A stretch of 64,000 nucleotides of DNA, taken from the NCBI RefSeq assembly GCF_009720485.1, contig NZ_CP045245.1, positions 3,720,001 through 3,784,000 of the forward strand. Direction: 5' to 3'. Shown in pieces: positions 1 to 12,075 of the stretch (position 1 is its first letter; each line of letters opens with the position of its first letter). The position numbers were made by a program, and so were the translations under genes. This stretch comes from Cellulomonas sp. JZ18. Its GTDB lineage: Bacteria > Actinomycetota > Actinomycetes > Actinomycetales > Cellulomonadaceae. The notes beneath the pieces were generated by a model. The model was not told the DNA's origin and did no database searches. It saw only the letters and a list, made by a program, of their open reading frames with translations.

Positions 1-897
1 ACGTGCTCCGCCGGCTACGTCGGCCTCACCTTCGACGACGGCCCCAACGCGAGCACGACCAACCAGATCATCAGCACCCTGCGGCAGTACGGCGCGACCG
101 CCGCCGTGTTCCCCACGGGTCAGAACGCCCAGAACAACGCGACCCTCATGCAGGCGTACAAGAACGCCGGCTTCCAGATCGGCAACCACAGCTGGGACCA
201 CCCGCACCTGGTGCAGCAGTCGCAGTCACAGGTGCAGTCGCAGCTGTCCCGCACGCAGCAGGCGATCCAGCAGACCGCGGGCGTCACGCCGACCGTGTTC
301 CGCCCGCCCTACGGCGAGACGAACGCGACCGTCAGCTCGGTCGCCTCGTCGCTCGGTCTGCGCGTCGTCACCTGGGACGTCGACTCCACCGACTGGAACA
401 ACGCGAGCGCCGCGTCGATCCGGCAGGCCGCCACCCGCCTGACCGACGGGCAGACGATCCTCCTGCACGACTGGCCGGCCGCGACCGTGCAGGCGCTGCC
501 CGGCATCCTGCAGGACCTGCGCTCGCGCAACCTCTGCACGGGCCACATCTCGGCCGGCACCGGGCGGGTCGTCGCCCCGGCCGGCTCCGGCGGCGGCACG
601 ACGCCCCCGCCGACGACGCCCCCGCCCACCGGTGGCGGTGGCGGCAGCTGCACCGCGACGGCCACGAAGGGCCAGGAGTGGGGCGACCGCTTCAACGTCA
701 CCTACGCCGTCCGGGCCTCCGGCAGCTGGGCCGTGACCGTCTACCCGAACACGGGCCAGTCGATCCAGAGCTCGTGGGGCGCCACCCGCAACGGCACCAC
801 CTTCACCGGCAGCGGCAACGCGTCGTTCGGCGTCACCTACTACAAGGGCAGCCAGAACATCACCTGGGTCCCCACCGGCATCTGCTCACCGCGCTGA
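1..897 (+). CDS. Secreted NodB-type polysaccharide deacetylase with C-terminal CBM2b (5' end outside window)
   Basis: The reading frame is open from base 1, so the N-terminus lies upstream. All NodB (carbohydrate esterase 4) motifs are visible in order: TFDDGP at residues 10-15, the metal-binding NHSWDHPHL, FRPPYG, the DSTDW segment and ILLHDW. A Gly/Pro/Thr linker (about 195-215) leads to an ~84-residue module bounded by two cysteines that matches CBM2b, with QEWGDRF and SSWGA carrying the expected surface tryptophans. The Arg in WGDR is the residue reported to orient one Trp for xylan rather than cellulose binding in C. fimi Xyn11A. The likely role is extracellular deacetylation of acetylxylan (or chitin oligomers). 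C. fimi Xyn11A is GH11-CBM2b-NodB-CBM2b, so the missing upstream part may carry another GH11 domain. Confidence 0.9.
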   Translation, partial: TCSAGYVGLTFDDGPNASTTNQIISTLRQYGATAAVFPTGQNAQNNATLMQAYKNAGFQIGNHSWDHPHLVQQSQSQVQSQLSRTQQAIQQTAGVTPTVFRPPYGETNATVSSVASSLGLRVVTWDVDSTDWNNASAASIRQAATRLTDGQTILLHDWPAATVQALPGILQDLRSRNLCTGHISAGTGRVVAPAGSGGGTTPPPTTPPPTGGGGGSCTATATKGQEWGDRFNVTYAVRASGSWAVTVYPNTGQSIQSSWGATRNGTTFTGSGNASFGVTYYKGSQNITWVPTGICSPR

Positions 898-2046
<1,149 letters not shown>

Positions 2047-2073
2047 CCCACCCGGTCGACCCATCGCCCACCC

Positions 2074-2112
2074 GAACGCCCGGTCCGCACCTCCCTCGCG
2101 GACCGGGCGTTC
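2074..2112 (+). terminator. Perfect 15-bp stem terminator of the xylanase gene
   Basis: Positions 2074-2088 and 2098-2112 are perfect inverted complements (GAACGCCCGGTCCGC and GCGGACCGGGCGTTC) with a 9-nt loop. The hairpin starts 27 nt after the xylanase stop codon and has no U-run. Confidence 0.8.
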
Positions 2113-2172
2113 GCACACCCACCCGCCGCCCCGGCACCCCGCCCGTCCGCCCCGAGATCCTCACCTCCCCGC

Positions 2173-2246
2173 CGAGTCCGCCGCGTAGGTGCCGAGCTCG
2201 CGACCTCCAGGTGCCGTACTCGACGCCGAGCCGACGTACTCGGTGG
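2173..2246. repeat. Intergenic four-unit element, copy A
   Basis: Four related 12-nt cores begin at 2173, 2193, 2215 and 2235, spaced 20, 22 and 20 nt. They read CGAGTCCGCCGC, CGAGCTCGCGAC, CGTACTCGACGC and CGTACTCGGTGG. Two more copies with almost the same spacing lie at 3335 and 8929. This copy is upstream of the DUF559 gene. The function is unknown. Confidence 0.6.
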
Positions 2247-2318
2247 ACGCGTCCCGGCCTGTCCACAGGTCGTCGGTGCTCGGCCCCACGGGCGGTGACG
2301 GGCACCGAGGCTCGGCGC

Positions 2319-3290
2319 ATGCCTCGTCGTCCCGGTCCACCGTCCGCGCTCCAGCTCGACCCCACCCCGCTGCCGACCGTGCACCTGCACGGGCACCACC
2401 CACCCGAGGACGTCCGGCGCCTGCTCGCCACCGGGACGTGGACGCGGGTGCGGCGCGGCGCGTCCGTCGACGCGCCGGGACCAGGACGCCACGACCGTCG
2501 CACCGCGCTCGCCCGCGTCGTCGCGGTGCACCGCCAGTCGTCGCACCCACCGCTCCTCGTGCGCGAGTCGGCGGCGCTCGTGTGGGGCCTCCCGCTCGCC
2601 GCGGTCCCCCGTGTCACGCACGTCGCCCAGGCGTCGCACCCCAGTGACCGCAGCGCTGCGGACGTGGTCCGGCACGTCGTTCACGTCCCCGCCGAGCACC
2701 GCACCGTGCACCGCGGGCTGCACGTGACGACGCTCGAGCGGACCGTCGTCGACTGCGCCGCCACGCTCGACCCGTACGGCGGGCTCGTCGTCGCCGACGC
2801 CGCCCTGCACGCCGGGGCGGACCCGGACCGGATCGGCGCGATGCTCGAGGCCGCACGTGGACGGCGGGGCGTGCGCCGCGCACGGGCGGTCGTCGCCGCG
2901 GCGGACGGCGGGGCGGAGTCGCCCGGTGAGACCTGGACGCGCTGGACGCTGCTGCGGTTCGGTCTGCCGACGCCCGAGACGCAGGTCGCCGTCGTGACGC
3001 CGGCCGGCCGCTACTGGGGCGACCTCGGCTACCCCGGCCGCCGGGTGCTCGTCGAGTACGACGGCGCCGAGAAGTACGGCACGGACGCCGCCGCCGCGGT
3101 CGACGCCCTGCGTCAGGAGCGCCGACGGCAGCTGGCCGTCGAGGAGGCGGGCTGGCGCGTCGTGCGGGCGACGGCCGCCGACCGGCGGGACCCCGCACGT
3201 CTGGTGACCCGTGTGCAGTCGCTGCTGCCCGACGTCCGCCCGACCCCCCGCCCGGACCTCCAGCCCCCGCCCCGCACCCCCACCCGCTGA
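2319..3290 (+). CDS. AbiEi-like winged-helix plus DUF559 nuclease-fold protein
   Basis: The protein has 323 residues. The N-terminal part (about 25-70, with LATGTWTRVRRGASVD) resembles the winged-helix of AbiEi-type type IV antitoxins. The C-terminal part (about 205-305) has the DUF559/Vsr-like PD-(D/E)XK pattern: an early Glu in SPGETWTRW, then an Asp in WGDLGY, then the signature VEYDGAEKYG. Such fusions are common orphan genes in actinobacteria, and no AbiEii nucleotidyltransferase partner is present here. A role in nucleic-acid metabolism or defence is inference only. The ATG follows a weak GAGG. The gene is bracketed by two copies of the four-unit repeat. Confidence 0.8.
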   Translation: MPRRPGPPSALQLDPTPLPTVHLHGHHPPEDVRRLLATGTWTRVRRGASVDAPGPGRHDRRTALARVVAVHRQSSHPPLLVRESAALVWGLPLAAVPRVTHVAQASHPSDRSAADVVRHVVHVPAEHRTVHRGLHVTTLERTVVDCAATLDPYGGLVVADAALHAGADPDRIGAMLEAARGRRGVRRARAVVAAADGGAESPGETWTRWTLLRFGLPTPETQVAVVTPAGRYWGDLGYPGRRVLVEYDGAEKYGTDAAAAVDALRQERRRQLAVEEAGWRVVRATAADRRDPARLVTRVQSLLPDVRPTPRPDLQPPPRTPTR

Positions 3291-3334
3291 CGCACCGCTG
3301 CGCCCACTCCCCACCCGCGGCCGCGATCCCTCGC

Positions 3335-3407
3335 CGAGTTCGGGGTTCTGTCGCGAGTTCGCGATCTCGAGGTCGCGTACTCGGCACGGAACCACCGAGC
3401 TCGGCGT
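3335..3407. repeat. Intergenic four-unit element, copy B
   Basis: Units start at 3335, 3354, 3376 and 3396 (spacing 19, 22, 20) with cores CGAGTTCGGGGT, CGAGTTCGCGAT, CGTACTCGGCAC and CGAGCTCGGCGT. Units 3-4 are joined by GGAACCAC, and in copy C by GCAACCAC. The element sits between convergent genes. Confidence 0.65.
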
Positions 3408-3451
3408 CGGGCGGGGCGGGGTCCGGGGGCTCGGGGGCCCGGTGTTCGGGG

Positions 3452-4123
3452 CTACGGGGTGAGGAGCTCGGCGGGGACGGCGGTGAGCGAGCGGACGACG
3501 TGCGCCGGCGAGTCGGGGCGGGCACGCCCGGCGCGGTCGAGCAGCACCGCGGCGATGCCGAGCGCCTGCGCACCCGCGACGTCCGCAGCCGGCGAGTCGC
3601 CGACGTGCACCGCGTCCGCCGGCGCGACACCCAGCCGGTCGAGCGCGAGCAGGAACGGCTCCGGGCGCGGCTTGTACGCACGCGCGTCCTCGCTCGTCAC
3701 GACCGCGTCGACGTGCAGCCCGTGGTGCGCGAGGACGGCGGCGGCGTCGTCCCGGTCGACGTCGGAGACGAGGCACACGGGCACGTCCACCGCGTCGAGC
3801 GCGTCGAGGAACGCCCGCGCGTCGGGCAGCAGGCGCGGGGCGCGCCACGCCGCCCGGGACGTCGTGAGCCACGCGTCGCCGTCGACGGTCACGCCGAACG
3901 CGTCCGCGAGGTGCCGGAGCGTGGACCGCGTCAGGTCGGCCAGGGTGCGGAACGCGTCGCCGTGCGCGTCGCCGCCGGCCCACAGGTGCGTCGTCCACGC
4001 GGCCTCCACGTCGGCGACCGGGGCGCCCGACCGGGCGGCGACGTCGGTGCAGATCCGGGCCACCACCGCGTCGTCGTCCTCGACGAGCGTGCCGTAGAGG
4101 TCGACCAGCACGGCGCGGGGCAC
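3452..4123 (-). CDS. HAD-superfamily hydrolase
   Basis: The protein has 223 residues and starts at GTG, with a TAGCCT hexamer ending 7 nt upstream, which suggests a leaderless transcript. HAD motif I is VDLYGT: the nucleophilic Asp is present, but the second acidic residue of the usual DxD is replaced by Tyr, as in the haloacid-dehalogenase/phosphatase subgroup that starts DxYGT. Motif II is LVSDVD, motif III the Lys in YKPRPEPF, and motif IV HVGDSPAADVAGA. A helical cap lies between motifs I and II (C1 type). It probably acts on a small phosphorylated or halogenated substrate. The substrate cannot be told from sequence. Confidence 0.9.
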   Translation of the reverse strand: MPRAVLVDLYGTLVEDDDAVVARICTDVAARSGAPVADVEAAWTTHLWAGGDAHGDAFRTLADLTRSTLRHLADAFGVTVDGDAWLTTSRAAWRAPRLLPDARAFLDALDAVDVPVCLVSDVDRDDAAAVLAHHGLHVDAVVTSEDARAYKPRPEPFLLALDRLGVAPADAVHVGDSPAADVAGAQALGIAAVLLDRAGRARPDSPAHVVRSLTAVPAELLTP

Positions 4124-4142
4124 GGCGGGCAGGCTACCGGTC

Positions 4143-4195
4143 CGGCCCTGCCCCGGGGCGCCGGCGGACGCTCGCCGACGCCGCGGGCAGGGCCG
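4143..4195 (-). terminator. Hairpin terminator of the beta-helix gene
   Basis: Eleven bases at 4143-4153 (CGGCCCTGCCC) pair perfectly with 4185-4195 (GGGCAGGGCCG), and an inner CGGCG/CGCCG stem stacks inside the loop. It lies just after the minus-strand stop codon at 4206 and before the HAD gene. Confidence 0.65.
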
Positions 4196-4205
4196 CGCCC
4201 CCGGG

Positions 4206-5426
4206 TCAGCAGCGCTGAACCGGCCCGCTGACGTTCCGGATCACGAGGTTGTCGGCGCACGGGTTCTCGACGATGCGCGCCCCGTTGGCCAGGGTGAGGT
4301 TCTGCAGGGTGATGTCCCGGTTGCCGGGGAACTCCGCGCGCTCGGCGAGCCGGACGTCCCCGCGGGAGACGGTGCCGCTCGTGGTCGCGAGGCTGACGTT
4401 GGTGCAGTTCTCGATGAGCACCGGGTTGTTGCCGGTGTTCGTCAGCTCGACGCGGTTCACCCGCAGCCCACCGCTCTCGGAGACGCAGAAGATCCCGCGC
4501 CCGCCGCCGCTCGCACGGACGGTCCCGACCTCGATGTTCGTCGGGTAGGAGCTGCCGACGCGGCCCGCCCGGTTGGCGATGCGGAACGCGGCGTACCCCG
4601 TGCCGGCGGCGACGTTGACGGCGTCGACCGTGCCGACGCGCGCGTTGATCGTCTGGTTGAGCAGGAGCCCCGACTCGCGGACGTCGCGCGCCGTGAGGGT
4701 GCCGAGCGTGAAGCCGTCGACGCCGTACGTCTCGACGGCGTGCGAGCCGGCGCCGGACACGTACGCGCGGTCGATGCTGATGTTGCGCGCGAAGCGGGAG
4801 CGGTCGCCGTGGTTGTCGACGCGGATGCCGATGCCGCCGCCGGACAGGCGCATGTCGACGTCCCGCAGCCGCAGGTCGTCGACGTTGCGCGCGAAGATCC
4901 CGTAGACGGGCGTGCCGGTCATCGCCAGCCGGGCGACCTCGATGTCGCGGACCCCGCGCATGTAGATGCCGGCGACGTTGCCGGACCCGGAGCCGCTGAC
5001 GTGGATGGTGCCGCAGGACTCGAACGCGGTGTGGCTGGGCAGCGTGATGCGGGCGTTCGCGCTCATGGTCCCGGAGCCGTTGACGACGACGCGCTGCTTG
5101 CTGGTGCGGCCGGCGTCGAGCCCGTCGACGGCGCGCTGGATGGCGGTGAGCATGTCGGAGCCGGACCACAGCTCGCGGGTGCCGCGGTAGGCGCGCCAGG
5201 TGCTGCCGTCCTGGACGGCGGAGCCGTGGACGGTCGAGCCGGTGCAGCTGGTGCCGGGTGCGGCGTGCGCGGCGGGCACCGCGACGAGGCCGGCGGCGAG
5301 GGTGGCGCCGGCCGCGAGCGCCGCGAGGACGGCGCGTCGGCGTGCGGGCCGGAGGGGGCGCGCAGATCGGGCGTGACGCGTCGTTCGGGCAGGTCGTGCG
5401 GTTCGGGCGAGCAGGGAGGACGGCAT
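4206..5426 (-). CDS. Secreted right-handed parallel beta-helix protein (pectin-lyase fold)
   Basis: The protein has 406 residues from the ATG that follows GAGAGG, with a long signal peptide (Arg-rich n-region, hydrophobic core, cut near AHAAPG). The mature part is built of about 22-25-residue rungs rich in Asn, Val, Ile and Gly (runs such as IEVARLAMTG and LRLRDVDMRL), the look of a parallel beta-helix of the pectate-lyase-like superfamily. Cys pairs near the start and end could clamp the helix caps. I see no motif that fixes an enzyme activity. Given its xylanase and cellulase neighbours and a LacI-type operator upstream, polysaccharide lyase or hydrolase activity on plant cell wall is plausible but unproven. 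Confidence 0.8.
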   Translation of the reverse strand: MPSSLLARTARPARTTRHARSARPLRPARRRAVLAALAAGATLAAGLVAVPAAHAAPGTSCTGSTVHGSAVQDGSTWRAYRGTRELWSGSDMLTAIQRAVDGLDAGRTSKQRVVVNGSGTMSANARITLPSHTAFESCGTIHVSGSGSGNVAGIYMRGVRDIEVARLAMTGTPVYGIFARNVDDLRLRDVDMRLSGGGIGIRVDNHGDRSRFARNISIDRAYVSGAGSHAVETYGVDGFTLGTLTARDVRESGLLLNQTINARVGTVDAVNVAAGTGYAAFRIANRAGRVGSSYPTNIEVGTVRASGGGRGIFCVSESGGLRVNRVELTNTGNNPVLIENCTNVSLATTSGTVSRGDVRLAERAEFPGNRDITLQNLTLANGARIVENPCADNLVIRNVSGPVQRC

Positions 5427-5537
5427 GCGGTGACCTCTCGTCGGGCCGCCGGGCGACGTGCGGGCGTGCGTCGGTGGACGCCCAGCCGGTCGGCCGGTCT
5501 CGACCGTAGGCGGCGTCACGCAGCAGGAGGGACGGTT

Positions 5538-5549
5538 TGAATCGTTTCG
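5538..5549. promoter_or_regulatory. LacI-type operator upstream of the beta-helix gene
   Basis: TGAATCGTTTCG is a near-perfect dyad with the central CG typical of LacI-family operators (TGAAnCGnTTCA pattern). It lies 112 bp upstream of the minus-strand beta-helix start and about 77 bp before the plus-strand DUF2809 start. Control of the beta-helix gene by a sugar-responsive repressor is inferred. Confidence 0.45.
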
Positions 5550-5625
5550 GAGCGCGCTTTCCGCACGTTTGACCCCGCAGCGGTGCCTGTGCTCGCAGCC
5601 CCTCGCGAGCCGCTACCGTCACCGC

Positions 5626-6057
5626 GTGCTCCCCTCCCTCCGGCGCGCCGCGGACCGGCGTCCGGCCGCCGCGCGTCGGCGGGATCCCCTCGTGGCCGCA
5701 GCCGCCGTGGTCCTCGCCTGCGGCCTCGCCGTCTCCCGCGGTGGCGGCCTGGGCGCGGACCTCGCCGGCGGCGCGCTGTACGCGGCGCTCGTGCACCTGC
5801 TCGTGCTGCTGGTCGCCCCGCGGACGCGCCCCGGCGTGGCCGCAGCCGTGGCGCTCGGTGCGTGCGTCACGGTGGAGCTCGCCCAGCTGACACCCGTACC
5901 CGCCACGGTGGTGGCGGCGTGGCCGCCGGCCGCGTACGTGCTCGGGTCGACGTTCGTGCCCACCGACCTGCTCGCGTACGCGGCCGGGGTGGCCGTCGTC
6001 GCGGCCGCGGACGTCCTCGCGCGCCGGGCACCCCGGGGGCCGGACCCCGCCGCCTGA
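5626..6057 (+). CDS. DUF2809-family small integral membrane protein
   Basis: The protein has 143 residues with about four hydrophobic segments and the family-typical VTVELAQLTP in the third and DLLAYAAGV before the last. GTG at 5626 is chosen because TACCGT (5614-5619) ends 6 nt before it, matching the leaderless -10 spacing used throughout this window. No function is established for the family. The gene stands alone between divergent and convergent neighbours. Confidence 0.75.
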   Translation: MLPSLRRAADRRPAAARRRDPLVAAAAVVLACGLAVSRGGGLGADLAGGALYAALVHLLVLLVAPRTRPGVAAAVALGACVTVELAQLTPVPATVVAAWPPAAYVLGSTFVPTDLLAYAAGVAVVAAADVLARRAPRGPDPAA

Positions 6058-6107
6058 CCGGCCGCCGCCCGACCCGGCTCACCGCTCGACCCGGCGGCGC
6101 CCGGCCC

Positions 6108-6848
6108 TCAGCCCGTCGGCCGCCGGTACACCGACACGTGCGAGCGCGACTCCGCCGTGAACGGCGTCCCCGACCAGTCGGCGTGCCGCTCCTCGAGCAC
6201 CAGCCCGGCGAGGCGCGCCATCAGGTCGAGCTCCGCCGGCCACACGTACCGGTGGCCGCTGCGCCACACCTCCGCCGTCCCGTCGTCGTCCCACCGCACG
6301 TGGTGCGAGACGAGCCGCTGGTGCAGCGGGTCGACCGTGTCGACGCCCAGGTACCGGTCCGCGGACGCGAACAGGACGCCCGGCTGCCCCGGTGGCAGCA
6401 CGCGCAGGTCCGGCACCTCGAGCTCGACGACGAACCGCCCGCCCGGCACCAGGTGACGCGCCGCGTTGGCGACGCACGCGACCTGCGCGTCCTGCGTGAG
6501 CAGGTTCGAGATCGCGTTGTAGACGACGTAGACGAGCGCGAACTCCCCCGGCACGCTCGCCGTCGCCATGTCGCCCAGCACGACCGGGAGCGTCGCCTCG
6601 TCGACCTTCGTCCGCAGCTGCGCGAGCATCGCCGCCGACAGCTCGACGCCCGCCACCGGCACGCCGCGCGCGGCGAGCGGCACGGCGACGCGCCCGGTCC
6701 CGACGGCGAGCTCCAGCGCGCGGCCGTCCCCGGCCAGTGCGGCGAGGCGGTCGACGGTCGGGTCGAGCACCTCCGGCGCGAACATGCCGACGCCCGGGGT
6801 GTCGTAGCGTCGCGCCGTCCGCTCGTCCCAGATGTCTCGGTGGTCCAC
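6108..6848 (-). CDS. Class I SAM-dependent methyltransferase
   Basis: The protein has 246 residues from GTG. SAM-binding motif I is ALELAVGTGRVAVPLA. An acidic residue follows in AGVELS, then VVLGDMA and a post-motif strand GGRFVVELEVP. The C-terminal WPAELDLMARLAGL block is shared with the broken gene at about 61.9 kb, so the two are paralogs. The substrate is unknown. An A/G-rich -10-like GAGCGT ends 6 nt before the GTG, consistent with a leaderless start. Confidence 0.88.
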   Translation of the reverse strand: MDHRDIWDERTARRYDTPGVGMFAPEVLDPTVDRLAALAGDGRALELAVGTGRVAVPLAARGVPVAGVELSAAMLAQLRTKVDEATLPVVLGDMATASVPGEFALVYVVYNAISNLLTQDAQVACVANAARHLVPGGRFVVELEVPDLRVLPPGQPGVLFASADRYLGVDTVDPLHQRLVSHHVRWDDDGTAEVWRSGHRYVWPAELDLMARLAGLVLEERHADWSGTPFTAESRSHVSVYRRPTG

Positions 6849-6976
6849 GCCGCGACGCTCGTCCTGACGACGGCGGCGCGTCAACGGGTTTGCGCGGCAG
6901 GACGGGCGGCGGGCGGGCCGCGAGCGTCGGCACCGTCGCCTGACCTCCCGCCCCCGCCCGCACCCGCGCCGCGTTC

Positions 6977-6990
6977 CCGAAGCGTTCCGG
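6977..6990. promoter_or_regulatory. Upstream LacI-like operator of the endoglucanase
   Basis: CCGAAGCGTTCCGG is an imperfect dyad centred on CG and shares GAAGCG with the perfect palindrome 50 bp downstream. The pair could allow looping or cooperative repression. Confidence 0.4.
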
Positions 6991-7026
6991 GGGTTCCGGA
7001 CGAACCGCCCGCGTCCGTACACTCCG

Positions 7027-7042
7027 GTCGAAGCGCTTCGAC
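7027..7042. promoter_or_regulatory. Perfect 16-bp LacI-family operator of the endoglucanase
   Basis: GTCGAAGCGCTTCGAC is a perfect palindrome 84 bp before the cellulase start. Its GCGC core resembles the CelR operator class (GAGCGCTC-type) known in cellulolytic actinobacteria. Derepression by cellobiose is inferred from that class, not visible here. Confidence 0.65.
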
Positions 7043-7125
7043 GTTCCGGTCGTCGCAGCCCGTGGGCACCGTCGCCCGCGCCGCCGGGGCACCGCCGCCC
7101 CCCGCGCTCGAAGGAGAGCACACAC

Positions 7126-8823
7126 GTGAACCGACGCCTGTGGGCGAGCGTCACCGCGCTCGTCTCGACCGCGGCGCTCGCCGCCGGCCTCGCCGCACCC
7201 GCGGCCGCCGCGCCCGACGCCGCCACCGCACGCGCACCGAAGCAGACGGCGGCGCAGAAGACCGTCGCCGCGATGCAGCCCGGCTGGAACCTCGGCAACA
7301 CGCTCGACGCCGTCGGCCCCGACGAGACCGCGTGGGGCAACCCGCGCGTCACCGAGGACCTGTTCGACGCCGTCGAGGACGAGGGCTTCAACAGCGTCCG
7401 CATCCCGGTGACGTTCGGTCAGCACCAGGGGCCGGCGCCCGAGTACGCGGTCGACCCGGTGTTCCTCGACCGCGTCGAGGAGGTCGTCGACATGGCGCTC
7501 GACGAGGGCCTGTACGTCCTGCTCGACGTCCACCACGACTCGTGGCAGTGGATCAACCAGATGCCGACGCAGCACGACGCGGTGCTCGCGCAGTACACCG
7601 CCCTGTGGGAGCAGCTGGCCGAGCGGTTCCGCGACCACCCGAGGCGGCTGCTGCTGGAGAGCGTGAACGAGCCGCAGTTCGCGGGCGTCGACGACGCGAC
7701 GTCGTACGCGCTGCTGCACGAGCTCAACGTCGTGTTCCACGAGATCGTCCGCTCGTCCGGCGGGCGCAACGCCGACCGCGTGCTCGTCCTGCCGACCCTG
7801 CACACCAACGCCGAGCAGGGCCGCCTCGACGCGCTGACCGCGACGTTCGAGCAGCTCGACGACCCGAACCTCGCCGCGACCGTCCACTACTACGGCTACT
7901 GGCCGTTCAGCGTGAACGTCGCGGGCGGCTACCGGTACGACGCGACCGCGCAGGCGGACACCGAGGGCACGTTCGCGCGCGTGCACGACTCGTTCGTCGC
8001 GCAGGGGATCCCCGTGATCCTCGGCGAGTACGGCCTGCTCGGGTTCGACCGGCACACGGGCACGATCCAGCAGGGCGAGAAGCTGAAGTTCTTCGAGCAC
8101 GTCGGCCACCTGGCCCGCACGACGGGCGTCACCACGATGCTGTGGGACAACGGCCAGCACCTGTCGCGGACCGCGTTCACGTGGCAGGACCCGGCGCTGT
8201 TCGCGCAGATCCGCGAGAGCTGGAAGCGGCAGTCCGGCACGGCGTCGACCGACCAGGTGTTCGTGCGTCCCGGCGCGGTCGCCGACCAGACGGTGACGCT
8301 GCACCCGAACGGCAACCGCGTGAAGGACGTCCGCCTCGACGGCCGGCGCCTGAAGCCGTCGCAGTACCGCCTCGACGGCGACGTGCTCACCCTGCCGGCG
8401 GCGCTGCTGCAGCCGCTCGTCGCCGACGGCACCCACGGCCCGCGCGCGGTCGTGGAGGTCCGGTTCAGCAAGGGCCTGCCGTGGCGGATCGAGGTCGTCG
8501 CCGCCGACACGCCCGTGCTCGGTGACGCGGCCGGCACGGTCGACGACCTCGCGATCCCGACGGACTTCCGCGGCGACCGCCTCGCCACGATGGAGGCGCG
8601 GTACGCCGACGGCACGAACGCCGGGCCGCACGGGTGGACGTCATTCAAGGAGTTCGACGTGACGTTCGCCCCCGAGGACGGCCGCATCGTGCTCCGCCCG
8701 GCGTTCTTCGCCGAGGTCACCGACGGTGCACCCGTGCACCTGACGTTCCACTTCTGGAGCGGCGACACGGTGAGCTACACGGTGACCCGCACGGGCACCA
8801 CGGTCACCGGCACCGCCGCCTGA
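7126..8823 (+). CDS. Secreted GH5 (subfamily 4-like) endo-beta-1,4-glucanase with X2 and CBM46 modules
   Basis: The protein has 565 residues; the GTG start follows GAAGGAG with good spacing. The signal peptide ends near AAAAPDA (about 30). The GH5 catalytic domain (about 45-370) contains PGWNLGNTLDA, FNSVRIPV, the acid/base E182 in SVNEPQ, HYYGYWPFS and the nucleophile E301 in ILGEYG. An Ig-like CBM_X2 domain follows (about 375-460, FVRPGAVADQTVTL). The last ~100 residues (TDFRGDRLATMEARYADG, HGWTSFKEFDVTF) look like CBM46. The GH5_4-X2-CBM46 order is known from Bacillus Cel5B-type enzymes acting on cellulose, beta-glucan and xyloglucan. Two LacI-like operators lie upstream. Confidence 0.95.
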   Translation: MNRRLWASVTALVSTAALAAGLAAPAAAAPDAATARAPKQTAAQKTVAAMQPGWNLGNTLDAVGPDETAWGNPRVTEDLFDAVEDEGFNSVRIPVTFGQHQGPAPEYAVDPVFLDRVEEVVDMALDEGLYVLLDVHHDSWQWINQMPTQHDAVLAQYTALWEQLAERFRDHPRRLLLESVNEPQFAGVDDATSYALLHELNVVFHEIVRSSGGRNADRVLVLPTLHTNAEQGRLDALTATFEQLDDPNLAATVHYYGYWPFSVNVAGGYRYDATAQADTEGTFARVHDSFVAQGIPVILGEYGLLGFDRHTGTIQQGEKLKFFEHVGHLARTTGVTTMLWDNGQHLSRTAFTWQDPALFAQIRESWKRQSGTASTDQVFVRPGAVADQTVTLHPNGNRVKDVRLDGRRLKPSQYRLDGDVLTLPAALLQPLVADGTHGPRAVVEVRFSKGLPWRIEVVAADTPVLGDAAGTVDDLAIPTDFRGDRLATMEARYADGTNAGPHGWTSFKEFDVTFAPEDGRIVLRPAFFAEVTDGAPVHLTFHFWSGDTVSYTVTRTGTTVTGTAA

Positions 8824-9162
8824 CCCACCCGCCCCGTCCGGTCCTCCGGCGGACCCACCCGCCCCCGTCCCGGCCCGGCCCGGCCCCCGCCCCGTCCTCC
8901 GGCCCGTCCCCCCGCTCCCCCCTCCCCGCGAGTCCGGCACCTGTGCGTCGAGTTCGGCACTCGTAGCCGTCGGACTCGGCACGCAACCACCGATCTCGGC
9001 GGCGGTGGGCGGGGCGGGGGCGGAGGCCGGGCGGGGGACCGAGGCGGGGCGGGGACCCGGCGGGGGCCGTGCAGGACCGGGCGGGGGCGTCGGCGGGCGG
9101 CGGGGCGTCCGGTGGACCACCCTGGACGGCGGGCGCGCCGAGCAGGGCGGGGGTGGTCGGGC
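8824..9162. other. 339-bp non-coding gap with GC-rich low-complexity sequence and repeat copy C
   Basis: After the cellulase stop there is a C-rich, G-poor stretch (8824-8928), then the four-unit repeat (8929-9002), then a G-rich, C-poor stretch (9003-9150). No credible gene is visible. The C-rich to G-rich switch around the repeat is a strong local strand asymmetry. Confidence 0.6.
8929..9002. repeat. Intergenic four-unit element, copy C
   Basis: Units start at 8929, 8949, 8971 and 8991 (spacing 20, 22, 20) with cores CGAGTCCGGCAC, CGAGTTCGGCAC, CGGACTCGGCAC and CGATCTCGGCGG. It is the most regular of the three copies. Confidence 0.65.
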
Positions 9163-10617
9163 GTGGAGTGGTTCGACGCCGAGGGGTACACGATCGCGCG
9201 CGAGGTCGTGCAGCGCGGCGTCGCGGCGGTCTTCGTCCTGGGGTTCGTCGCGGTGCTGCGCCAGTTCCGGCCGCTGCTCGGCGAGCACGGGCTGCTGCCG
9301 GTGCCGGCGTTCACGGCCCGGGTGCCGTTCCGCGCCAGCCCCAGCCTGTTCCACCGGTGGTTCTCCGACCGGCTGGTCGTGGTCGTCGGCTGGGTCGGCG
9401 TCGTGGTCGCGCTGACGCTCGTCGCCGGGCTCCCGCAGCAGGGACCGCCGTGGCTGTCGGCGCTCGCGTTCCTGCTGCTGTGGGCGCTGTACCTGTCGGT
9501 CGTCAATGTCGGGCAGGTGTTCTACGGGTTCGGCTGGGAGTCGTTGCTGCTCGAGGCGGGGTTCCTCGTGGCGTTCCTCGGGTCGGACGACGTCGCGCCG
9601 CCGGTCACCGTGCTCGCGCTGCTGTGGTGGCTCGTCTTCCGCCTCGAGTTCGGCGCGGGGCTCATCAAGTGGCGGGGCGACCCGGCGTGGCGGGACCTGA
9701 CGGCGCTGTACTACCACCACGAGACGCAGCCCATGCCGGGCCCGCTGAGCCGCCTGTTCCACCTGCTGCCGCGTCCGCTGCACAAGGTCGAGGTGGTCGC
9801 GAACCACGTGACGCAGCTGGTCGTGCCGTTCGGGCTGCTGGTGCCCGGGCCTGTGGCGTCGACGGCCGCGGCGGTCATGGTCGTCACGCAGCTGTGGCTC
9901 GTGCTGTCCGGCAACTTCGCGTGGCTGAACTGGTTGACGATCGTCCTGGCGTGCGCGGCGATCGACGACGCGTCGTGGCGGTGGGCCCTCGGCCTCGTCG
10001 GCGCGGACGTCGCCCCCGCCGCACCGGCCGCCGACCCGCCGCTGTGGTTCGTCGTCGTGGTCCTGGCCGTCACCGCGCTGTGCGTGTGGATCAGCCGGCA
10101 CCCGCTGCGCAACCTGCTGTCGCGCCACCAGGCGATGAACGCCTCCTTCAACGTCTGGCACCTGGTCAACGCGTACGGGGCGTTCGGCTCCATCACGCGC
10201 CGGCGCACGGAGGTCGTGGTCGAGGGGACGCGCGACCCCGACCCGGCGACCGCCACGTGGCTCGAGTACGAGTTCCGCGGCAAGCCCACCGACGTGCGCC
10301 GCCTGCCCCGCCAGTACGCGCCGTACCACCTGCGCCTCGACTGGGGGATGTGGTTCCTCGCGCTCGGCTCGTCGTCGCAGCTGCGCTGGTTCGTGCCGTT
10401 CCTGGGCCGGCTGCTCGAGGCCGACCGGCCCACGCTGCGGCTGCTCGCACGCGACCCGTTCGACGGGGAGCGGCCCCGGTGGGTGCGCGCGCACCTGTAC
10501 CGGTACCGGTTCGCGACCCGCGCGGAGCGCCGCGCCACCGGGCAGCGGTGGGTGCGCGAGGACGACGGCCTCATGATCGGCGCCATGGACAGCACCCGGT
10601 TCGCACGCATGCGCTGA
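9163..10617 (+). CDS. Lipase maturation factor (LMF1/DUF1222)-family membrane protein
   Basis: The protein has 484 residues if the GTG of VEWFDAEGY is used; a start 51 nt upstream is possible. The first ~360 residues carry about eight membrane segments. Hallmarks of the family are the loop LEFGAGLIKWRGDPAWRDLTALYYHHETQPMP-like region and the soluble C-terminal block WLEYEFRGKP and APYHLRLDWGMWF. In animals LMF1 helps dimeric lipases fold in the ER. The bacterial role is not established; assistance to secreted enzymes is speculation. No operon partner is evident. Confidence 0.88.
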   Translation: MEWFDAEGYTIAREVVQRGVAAVFVLGFVAVLRQFRPLLGEHGLLPVPAFTARVPFRASPSLFHRWFSDRLVVVVGWVGVVVALTLVAGLPQQGPPWLSALAFLLLWALYLSVVNVGQVFYGFGWESLLLEAGFLVAFLGSDDVAPPVTVLALLWWLVFRLEFGAGLIKWRGDPAWRDLTALYYHHETQPMPGPLSRLFHLLPRPLHKVEVVANHVTQLVVPFGLLVPGPVASTAAAVMVVTQLWLVLSGNFAWLNWLTIVLACAAIDDASWRWALGLVGADVAPAAPAADPPLWFVVVVLAVTALCVWISRHPLRNLLSRHQAMNASFNVWHLVNAYGAFGSITRRRTEVVVEGTRDPDPATATWLEYEFRGKPTDVRRLPRQYAPYHLRLDWGMWFLALGSSSQLRWFVPFLGRLLEADRPTLRLLARDPFDGERPRWVRAHLYRYRFATRAERRATGQRWVREDDGLMIGAMDSTRFARMR

Positions 10618-10704
10618 CGAGCCCCGGACGTCGGCCACCGCACCCGCGGACGCACGGGCGAATCCGCGTGCACCGCCGCGTGCGCCCCTGCGACGATGAC
10701 GCCC

Positions 10705-12075
10705 ATGTCCCCCTCGTCCCCGCGCGCCTCCCCTGCCCGGGCACCGGCCCGCGGGCTCGCGGTGACGGCCGACCCGGAGGCGTCGACCGGCGCGCCCGGG
10801 ACGACGCCGGCTCCTCCGCCGCGCGGCGTCGCGGGACCGCTCGTCGAGCGCCTGCTGCCCGCGCGCCTCGGCACGGGGATCCGGTGGCTGCTCGCGTCGT
10901 CCTGGTCGACCAACCTCGGCGACGGCCTGCTGCTCGCGGCCGGCCCGCTGCTCGTCGCCTCGCGCACCGACGACCCGTTCCTCGTCGCGCTCGCCGCGCT
11001 CCTCACGTGGCTGCCGCCGCTGCTGTTCGGCCTGTGGGCGGGGGTGCTGACCGACCGGCTCGACCGGCGCCGACTCGTGGTGACGGTCAACGTCGTGCGG
11101 GTCGGGGTGCTCGCGGCGCTCGCGGCCGCGGTGGCGCTCGACGCCGCGCCGATCGCGGTGGTGCTCGCGGCGCTGTTCCTCGTCGCGACGGCTGAGACGT
11201 TCGCCGACAACACCTTCAACGCGCTCGTGCCGACGCTCGTCGCGCGCGACGACCTCGCGGTCGCCAACGCGCGCATGCAGACCGCGTTCATCGCGCTCAA
11301 CCAGCTCGCCGGGCCGCCGCTGGGCGCCGCGCTGTTCGCGGTCGGGCACGCCTGGCCGGTCGCGGCCGACGCGCTGCTCGTCGCCGCCGGCGTCGCGCTC
11401 GTCGCGCGGGTGCGCCTGCCCGAGCGCGCGTCCGACCACCACGAGCGCAGCCACGTGCTGGCCGACGTCGCCGAGGGCGTCCGCTGGGTGTGGCACCACG
11501 CCGCCGTGCGCACGCTGGTCCTGACGATCCTCATCTTCAACGTGACGTTCGGCGCCGCGTTCTCGGTGCTCGTCCTGTACGCGCAGGAGCGCCTCGGCCT
11601 CGGCGAGGTCGGCTACGGCCTGCTGACGACGACGCAGGCGCTCGGCGGCCTCGCCGGCATCGCGGCGTACGGCTGGCTGACGGCGCGCGTCTCCCTCGCG
11701 AACCTCCTGCGCGTCGGCCTGGTCATCGAGACCCTCACGCACCTGGCGCTCGCGCTGACGACGCAGGCGTGGCTGGCCCTCGGCATCTTCTTCGTCTTCG
11801 GCGCGCACGCGTTCGTCTGGGGCACGACGTCGGTGACGGTGCGCCAGCGCGCCGTCCCGCACCGGCTGCAGGGGCGCGTCGGCAGCGTGAACCTCGTCGG
11901 CGTCTTCGGCGGGCTCGTGCTCGGCGCGGGGATCGGTGGCGCGCTCGCGCAGCGGTACGGCGTGACGGCGCCGTTCTGGTTCGCGTTCGCGGGCTCGGCC
12001 GTGTTCGTCGTGCTCATCTGGCACCAGCTGCGCCACGTCGCGCACGCGGACGAGCAGGACGCGCCCGCCGCGTGA
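10705..12075 (+). CDS. MFS transporter, EntS-like (MFS_3) exporter family
   Basis: The protein has 456 residues from the ATG that follows a GACGAT -10-like hexamer by 7 nt; an in-frame ATG 9 nt earlier is the alternative. It has twelve predicted membrane segments. The conserved loop 2-3 motif GVLTDRLDRRRLVV is the Major Facilitator signature, and the central break carries RADV/VLADVAEGVRWVW. It is related to the MFS protein at 14.6 kb. The likely role is proton-driven efflux of a small molecule (siderophore, antibiotic or metabolite). The substrate is unknown. Confidence 0.88.
   Translation: MSPSSPRASPARAPARGLAVTADPEASTGAPGTTPAPPPRGVAGPLVERLLPARLGTGIRWLLASSWSTNLGDGLLLAAGPLLVASRTDDPFLVALAALLTWLPPLLFGLWAGVLTDRLDRRRLVVTVNVVRVGVLAALAAAVALDAAPIAVVLAALFLVATAETFADNTFNALVPTLVARDDLAVANARMQTAFIALNQLAGPPLGAALFAVGHAWPVAADALLVAAGVALVARVRLPERASDHHERSHVLADVAEGVRWVWHHAAVRTLVLTILIFNVTFGAAFSVLVLYAQERLGLGEVGYGLLTTTQALGGLAGIAAYGWLTARVSLANLLRVGLVIETLTHLALALTTQAWLALGIFFVFGAHAFVWGTTSVTVRQRAVPHRLQGRVGSVNLVGVFGGLVLGAGIGGALAQRYGVTAPFWFAFAGSAVFVVLIWHQLRHVAHADEQDAPAA

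Follow-up and report, generated by a model that had tools for sequence, protein, structure and literature searches.

The DNA considered here is a 64,000-nt stretch of the Cellulomonas sp. JZ18 chromosome (NZ_CP045245.1, positions 3,720,001 to 3,784,000), and coordinates called window coordinates are positions within it. Near its start lies a gene for a 323-residue nuclease-like protein, P0001 (window 2319 to 3290, forward strand; the start codon is our choice), which is flanked by two copies of a four-word palindromic element. Copy 1 (window 2168 to 2247) forms the left flank of this cassette, between a GH11 gene and the nuclease gene, and copy 2 (window 3330 to 3408) forms the right flank, 39 bp past the nuclease stop codon and between convergent genes. 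A third, dispersed copy (window 8924 to 9003) falls between a GH5 cellulase gene and the next gene, which Pfam assigns to the lipase-maturation-factor family. All three were recognised in a preliminary description of the window, which placed them at 2173-2246, 3335-3407 and 8929-9002. The boundaries used here are those of R1, a covariance model built from 15 copies, which matches copies 1, 2 and 3 with 76.1, 77.7 and 78.3 bits respectively (E 4.9e-13, 2.2e-13 and 1.6e-13). Since R1 was trained on these three copies among others, it is the size of the family that serves as independent evidence.

An R1 search of the whole genome (one contig of 4.04 Mb that begins with dnaA, hereafter G000; other G-codes denote further sampled genomes) recovered 31 distinct copies at E<=1e-4, and a plain BLAST search with one copy as query gave 40 matches in the chromosome at E<=1. 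Taken singly, 12-mer cores are about as frequent in the window as chance would give (61 matches, 48.9 expected; 5 of 100 shuffles were as high), so significance resides in the four-unit arrangement, which this genome-wide check found beyond chance frequency. Every one of the 31 copies is intergenic according to a simple in-house gene-caller (window coding fraction 0.88), which extends to the whole G000 family the placement first noted for the window copies and leaves them without a coding explanation. They occupy 23 gaps, 9 convergent, 11 co-directional and 3 divergent, compared with 3, 14 and 13 respectively among the 30 window gaps of at least 60 bp, and are often near stop codons. A search of window positions 1-12000 against Rfam (E<=0.1) placed no curated family on the copies, the only hit being a sub-threshold IRES_Bip match away from them at 8328-8412. 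Among 72,556 plasmid records there was one weak partial match.

The G000 consensus, CCCGCCGAGTTCGGCAGTTCCGTGCCGAGTTCGGCAGCTGCAGGTGGCGGACTCGGCACAGAACCGCCGAACTCGGCGGG, was derived from 21 of the 31 copies, with eight 79-bp and two irregular copies excluded. It contains four words of about 11 nt in the order > > < <: units 1 and 2 are direct repeats with a period of 19-20 bp, which units 3 and 4 restate in reverse complement, and the entire element of about 78 bp is thus a palindrome. In G000 this order is masked, because the word is itself nearly dyad. The preliminary description had given four related 12-nt cores at spacings of 20/22/20 or 19/22/20; the array and the spacing hold (20/22/20 fits the 79-80-bp copies), and the inversion of units 3 and 4 is a correction to the layout. 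Word columns are mostly more conserved than linker columns in the consensus profile, judged by eye, and the predicted folding of 17 copies, on both strands, ranges from -25 to -76 kcal/mol. Taken together, strict spacing, conserved words and free linkers point to recognition of the words by a protein. In outline, an array of protein sites two helical turns apart, as originally suggested, is well supported; the palindromic order, the nuclease and the variation in words had been missed.

Departures from the four-word form also occur in G000. Five-unit versions lie near 3.458 Mb, and at 193440-193720 about seven single units follow one another in tandem, with a period of roughly 20 bp, beside one oppositely oriented unit. 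Whole elements are duplicated in tandem at distances of 122 to 178 bp, four of the seven cases at 155-157 bp; duplications of this last size occur at three separate places (3457742-3458132, 1218052-1218286 and 467645-467881).

P0001 is a fusion protein. Its AlphaFold2 model (pLDDT 94.7, pTM 0.92) gives structural matches to the AbiEi fold for residues ~19-196 and to Vsr/EDxHD nucleases for residues ~201-307, the nearest to the nuclease half being the homing endonuclease I-Bth0305I. The PADLOC AbiEi profile matches it at E 7.6e-8, and eight residues (D160, S201, R208, D235, E246, D248, G249 and R270) are invariant in 64 family sequences. No Y1 transposase domain appears among the Pfam matches of P0001 or of these 64 members, the proteins to which that search was confined. 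Source databases name family proteins as hypothetical protein, DUF559, 'very-short-patch-repair endonuclease' or 'AbiEi antitoxin', and we found no assigned role for the family. Between G000 and G076 the nuclease is 74% identical and its immediate neighbours 83-95%, a comparison of percent identity in one genome pair. The gene came to attention through clustering of the proteins encoded beside element copies, as the one lying between two copies in two genomes; other families recur too in these clusters, the largest of which has 7 members. The preliminary description had also placed the copies near secreted glycanase genes. This closeness is local to the window, where the GH11 gene (1042-2046) adjoins copy 1 and a GH5 gene with CBM46 and CBM_X2 domains (7126-8823) adjoins copy 3; the neighbours of non-window copies appear mixed in a by-eye reading of 45 neighbour protein starts, made without a domain scan. 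The glycanase link looks incidental.

The position of the nuclease gene between two element copies, seen in G008 as in G000, is widespread. Homologues at E<=1e-10 are found in 67 of 81 Cellulomonas genomes, and R1 matches (E<=0.1) stand on both sides of the nuclease at 24 of 30 loci tested. Independently of R1, we looked for a repeat common to the 350 bp upstream and the 350 bp downstream of the gene, excluding 5 of 90 loci whose flanks were too short. Flank similarity exceeded the best of 255 shuffles at 73 of the 85 remaining genus loci, and at 67 it was above the highest of 138 control genes, which were taken throughout from G000. It also exceeded all control genes at 20 of 27 loci outside the genus, drawn from six families of the order. 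Mismatched flank pairs taken across genomes were above shuffles in 10% of 850 cases, which we put down to element families common to several genomes; the highest of them outscore every matched pair. A separate palindrome test, in which both flanks had to exceed the best of 139 control genes, was passed by 28 of the 85 genus loci and by 8 of the 27 from other genera; with the 95th percentile of controls as threshold these counts rose to 47 and 13. The multiplicity of k-mers in flanks was dropped as a measure, since nuclease genes and controls could not be told apart by it in this GC-rich DNA. Homologues extend across the order (136 of 149 sampled genomes, 60 of 64 genera) and into the phylum (53 of 198 genomes at E<=1e-20).

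Presence of the gene is also correlated with presence of the element. R1 matches occur in 27 of 35 other Cellulomonas genomes and, outside the genus, in 1 of 22; within the genus they are patchy (60 of 81 genomes), and R1 misses some words. Of the 60 genus genomes with the gene at E<=1e-20, 53 have elements and 7 do not, while 14 of the 21 genomes without a strong gene match also lack elements (Fisher 3.5e-6, Spearman 0.48 over 81 genomes). In six of the seven gene-positive, R1-negative genomes (G004, G033, G058, G063, G064 and G088) the nuclease flanks nevertheless share a repeat above controls, which indicates that R1 misses their words; the seventh, G012, lay outside the flank test.

The words vary widely among loci, and their geometry does not. 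We examined 121 strong palindromes flanking the gene, from 84 of 112 loci in 61 genomes. Palindrome arms matched themselves at nine or more of ten bases at a shift of 19 in 43% of cases and of 20 in 16.5%; any other shift in the range 11-26 reached at most 0.4%, and shuffled arms at most 0.2%. A shift of 19 or 20 was the unique best in 68 of the 84 loci, the other 16 having none. This period recurs across unrelated words, so it is geometry that is conserved and not sequence. Copies fetched from other genomes likewise for the most part keep both the > > < < layout and the CGAG/CTCG corners, with words that differ by genome. An exact-pattern scan of named genomes accordingly matched only two contigs of one Cellulomonas, the words being species-dependent.

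Words are also specific to paralogues, several of which may share a genome and carry different words (three in G000, for example). A second G000 paralogue, at 2612494-2613720, comes with an element family of its own, of which about nine scattered copies occur in G000 and none was matched in G028. One second word, CGAGCGCGG(T/C)A, recurs in several Cellulomonas species (L066, L071, L074, L111); in G028, copy L111 matches the flank of one nuclease paralogue (L155) and the other copies that of another. Scattered copies tend towards the nuclease of their own genome. We ranked 62 copies from 20 genomes against the nuclease flanks of 51 genomes (62 of 74, excluding both window flanks, a flank of one G008 gene, and nine copies whose genomes had no fetched nuclease locus). 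Own-genome flanks ranked first for 18 copies, against 1.2 expected, and the median own-flank rank was 3 or better in 10 of the 20 genomes. The genome count is the safer figure, as copies within one genome are not independent.

Comparison with one relative, G076, indicates that words have changed in concert at most shared sites. In 18 locus pairs, selected for similar genes or elements, coding matches were found on both sides in 16 and on one side in 2, although three of the two-sided pairs depend on at least one match of only 27-52 residues; the cassettes look vertically inherited. At what is apparently the same locus the words are TTCGGCAC in G000, TTCGCCGG in G076 and CCTCGTCAC in G094 (G000 and G094 being matched on one side). 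Fifteen G076 element loci were examined, from a total of 24 copies in that genome, and five scattered copies and two gene flanks lie at positions that are also occupied in G000. At six of these seven positions the G076 copy is nearer to the median of the other G076 copies than to the orthologous G000 copy. The exception, the ppx site at 3005240 (35.6 versus 33.9), has kept a trace of positional orthology. Among the 30 of 81 genomes in which the gap between ppx and the PadR gene was examined, several have different words and others no strong palindrome.

We consider it somewhat more probable than not that these elements make up the cis-acting half of a bipartite repeat system, which works like the repetitive extragenic palindromic (REP) sequences and their REP-associated tyrosine transposases (RAYTs) but with a different enzyme. 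Under this proposal, the nuclease gene would be inherited vertically at a fixed locus between its two palindromes. The words are probably bound by the AbiEi-like half, which might act as a dimer of dimers, either along one DNA face or on an extruded hairpin; the Vsr/EDxHD-type half would nick or cut at the bound element. Repair or copying from another element would then spread copies into intergenic DNA and overwrite older ones, with the outcome that nuclease, flanking copies and scattered copies switch word together. We infer binding, cutting and copying by the nuclease: flanking, specificity and concerted change suggest that the flanked gene is the reader and likely the binding protein of the words, and the fold and invariant residues suggest that it cuts. 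Copying could proceed through a single-stranded hairpin, as has been suggested for REPINs, or through double-strand-break repair, as in homing.

A number of results weigh against this proposal. Flank repeats stayed within the range of the controls at 18 of the 85 genus loci and at 7 of the 27 from other genera; outside the order they rose above it at only 9 of 24 loci and at none of the 11 most divergent (L300-L310), and the 19/20 period was absent from the phylum-wide locus set, three order loci included. Seven of the genomes without a strong gene match have elements. The own genome was not first for 44 of 62 scattered copies, and its median rank was worse than 3 in 10 of 20 genomes, falling to 42 and 50 of 51 in G035 and G033; for many G000 copies the flank from G085, which has the same word, outscores their own. 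The winged-helix part was rejected as sole carrier of specificity, as word similarity tracks it no better than the rest of the protein (Mantel 0.19 for the N-terminal, 0.245 for the middle and 0.20 for the C-terminal part, with no clear winner). With respect to the hairpin step, linker covariation was sought as evidence and came out negative in scattered copies, and words pair only weakly better within than between copies. Outer word pairs stood out clearly from shuffling in G028 (0 of 1000), weakly in G000 (37 of 1000) and without excess in G076 and G008. The covariation data thus do not require a full hairpin. Finally, no copy was caught in transposition, and neither a duplicated target site nor an exact empty site was seen; in the comparison of occupied and unoccupied ppx sites the element boundary could not be placed.

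The likeness to REP/RAYT is one of working rather than of membership. In the REP literature considered here, RAYT genes are described as lying between two REPs with which they co-evolve, as changing faster than their neighbours and as correlated with REP abundance, with REP copies usually numbering over 100 (PMC2817692); a single-stranded hairpin is suggested for REPIN copying (PMC3116915), and the palindrome of a REP is defined as having a GTAG or CGTC tag on one end (PMC3733652). Measured against these accounts, our system shares a gene set between two palindromic extragenic repeats with scattered non-autonomous copies, co-variation of repeat and enzyme, gene presence that tracks repeat abundance, and an enzyme gene that is faster-evolving than its neighbours in the one genome pair compared. 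It differs in its enzyme, since RAYTs are HUH/Y1 tyrosine transposases, in its four words at a 19-20-bp period, and in its tens of copies; the consensus carries neither tag. With an enzyme that is not an HUH transposase and no tag, it resembles REP/RAYT without belonging to it.

Other known systems are matched in part. In miniature inverted-repeat transposable elements (MITEs) with a parent transposon, the boundary repeat is half of a terminal inverted repeat. Our elements are like these in comprising short non-autonomous copies and one coding copy framed by the same repeat, but each boundary is a complete palindrome and no target-site duplication was established. The protein differs from the AbiEi antitoxin of the type IV toxin-antitoxin system AbiE, and from Rv2827c, in having a nuclease half and no adjoining AbiEii partner in the window. 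An anti-phage or toxin-antitoxin role, with an AbiEi-derived nuclease and merely autoregulatory flanking repeats, would suit the AbiEi fold and profile match. We regard it as very improbable: the immediate neighbours in the window, the locus that was scanned, are the GH11 gene and a HAD-hydrolase gene with no AbiEii toxin profile, and the 29 copies scattered away from the gene would go unexplained.

Homing alone is the strongest of the competing explanations, and we hold it to be possible but doubtful. It would make the protein a free-standing EDxHD-type nuclease and the elements its targets, with double-strand breaks and conversion spreading word and cassette and no single-stranded hairpin. 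The nuclease half is predicted to have the catalytic fold of I-Bth0305I, its nearest match, and both the concerted word change at orthologous sites and the different words at one ppx-PadR site in different genomes are what biased conversion would be expected to produce. From EDxHD/Vsr-like homing endonucleases such as I-Bth0305I the protein differs in its fusion to an AbiEi-like half and in its tie to a dispersed repeat family, and nothing at the locus points to an intron or intein around the gene. Against homing alone, cassettes kept the same locus in the selected pairs, no element was seen to have gained the gene among those 18 pairs (the only ones inspected), a host should be harmed by carrying sites open to cutting by its own nuclease, and the palindromic form is not accounted for. 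Less probable again is a host function, in which a domesticated nuclease acts on arrays that serve chromosome organisation or replication control and selection holds the words in step. The strict geometry and seemingly vertical inheritance would fit, as would the avoidance of the terminus half in G000 (21 of 22 loci origin-proximal, at 40 kb-1.22 Mb and 3.12-3.95 Mb), in G008 (18 of 20 among the matches listed) and in G076 (24 of 24 copies, position 0 being taken as the origin by collinearity rather than by a dnaA search). G028, however, has no such bias (30 of 54 among the matches listed), and an origin domain was therefore rejected as a general property of the family. Patchy R1 elements within the genus, allowing for the words that R1 misses, and several paralogue-word families in one genome also argue against this explanation. 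Bidirectional transcription terminators or mRNA 3'-end hairpins that have become repetitive are, in our judgement, scarcely credible. The preference for convergent gaps and closeness to stop codons are in their favour, but three gaps are divergent, linkers lack covariation, the tandem unit arrays are not hairpins, the copies match no Rfam family, and neither the flanked nuclease nor the genome-specific words would be explained.

The proposed coupling to cognate repeats gives a nuclease family common to almost all sampled genomes of the order a testable role. The arrangement has apparently not been described before; within the open-access literature that we searched, to which subscription papers did not belong, no title or abstract opening describes an association of this nuclease with repeats. 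Whether the REP/RAYT way of life had a separate origin here we judge to be evenly balanced: AbiEi-like/Vsr-type nucleases throughout the order, each with its own four-word palindrome, would spread and convert intergenic copies, and several nuclease-word pairs would compete on one chromosome and rewrite the same sites in step. The coupling would amount to a second way, with an unrelated enzyme, of keeping up a scattered family of palindromic repeats, and its natural word switching could be used to decode DNA recognition. It would also account for intergenic repeats of high-GC genomes that belong to this class and may be mistaken for regulatory sites.

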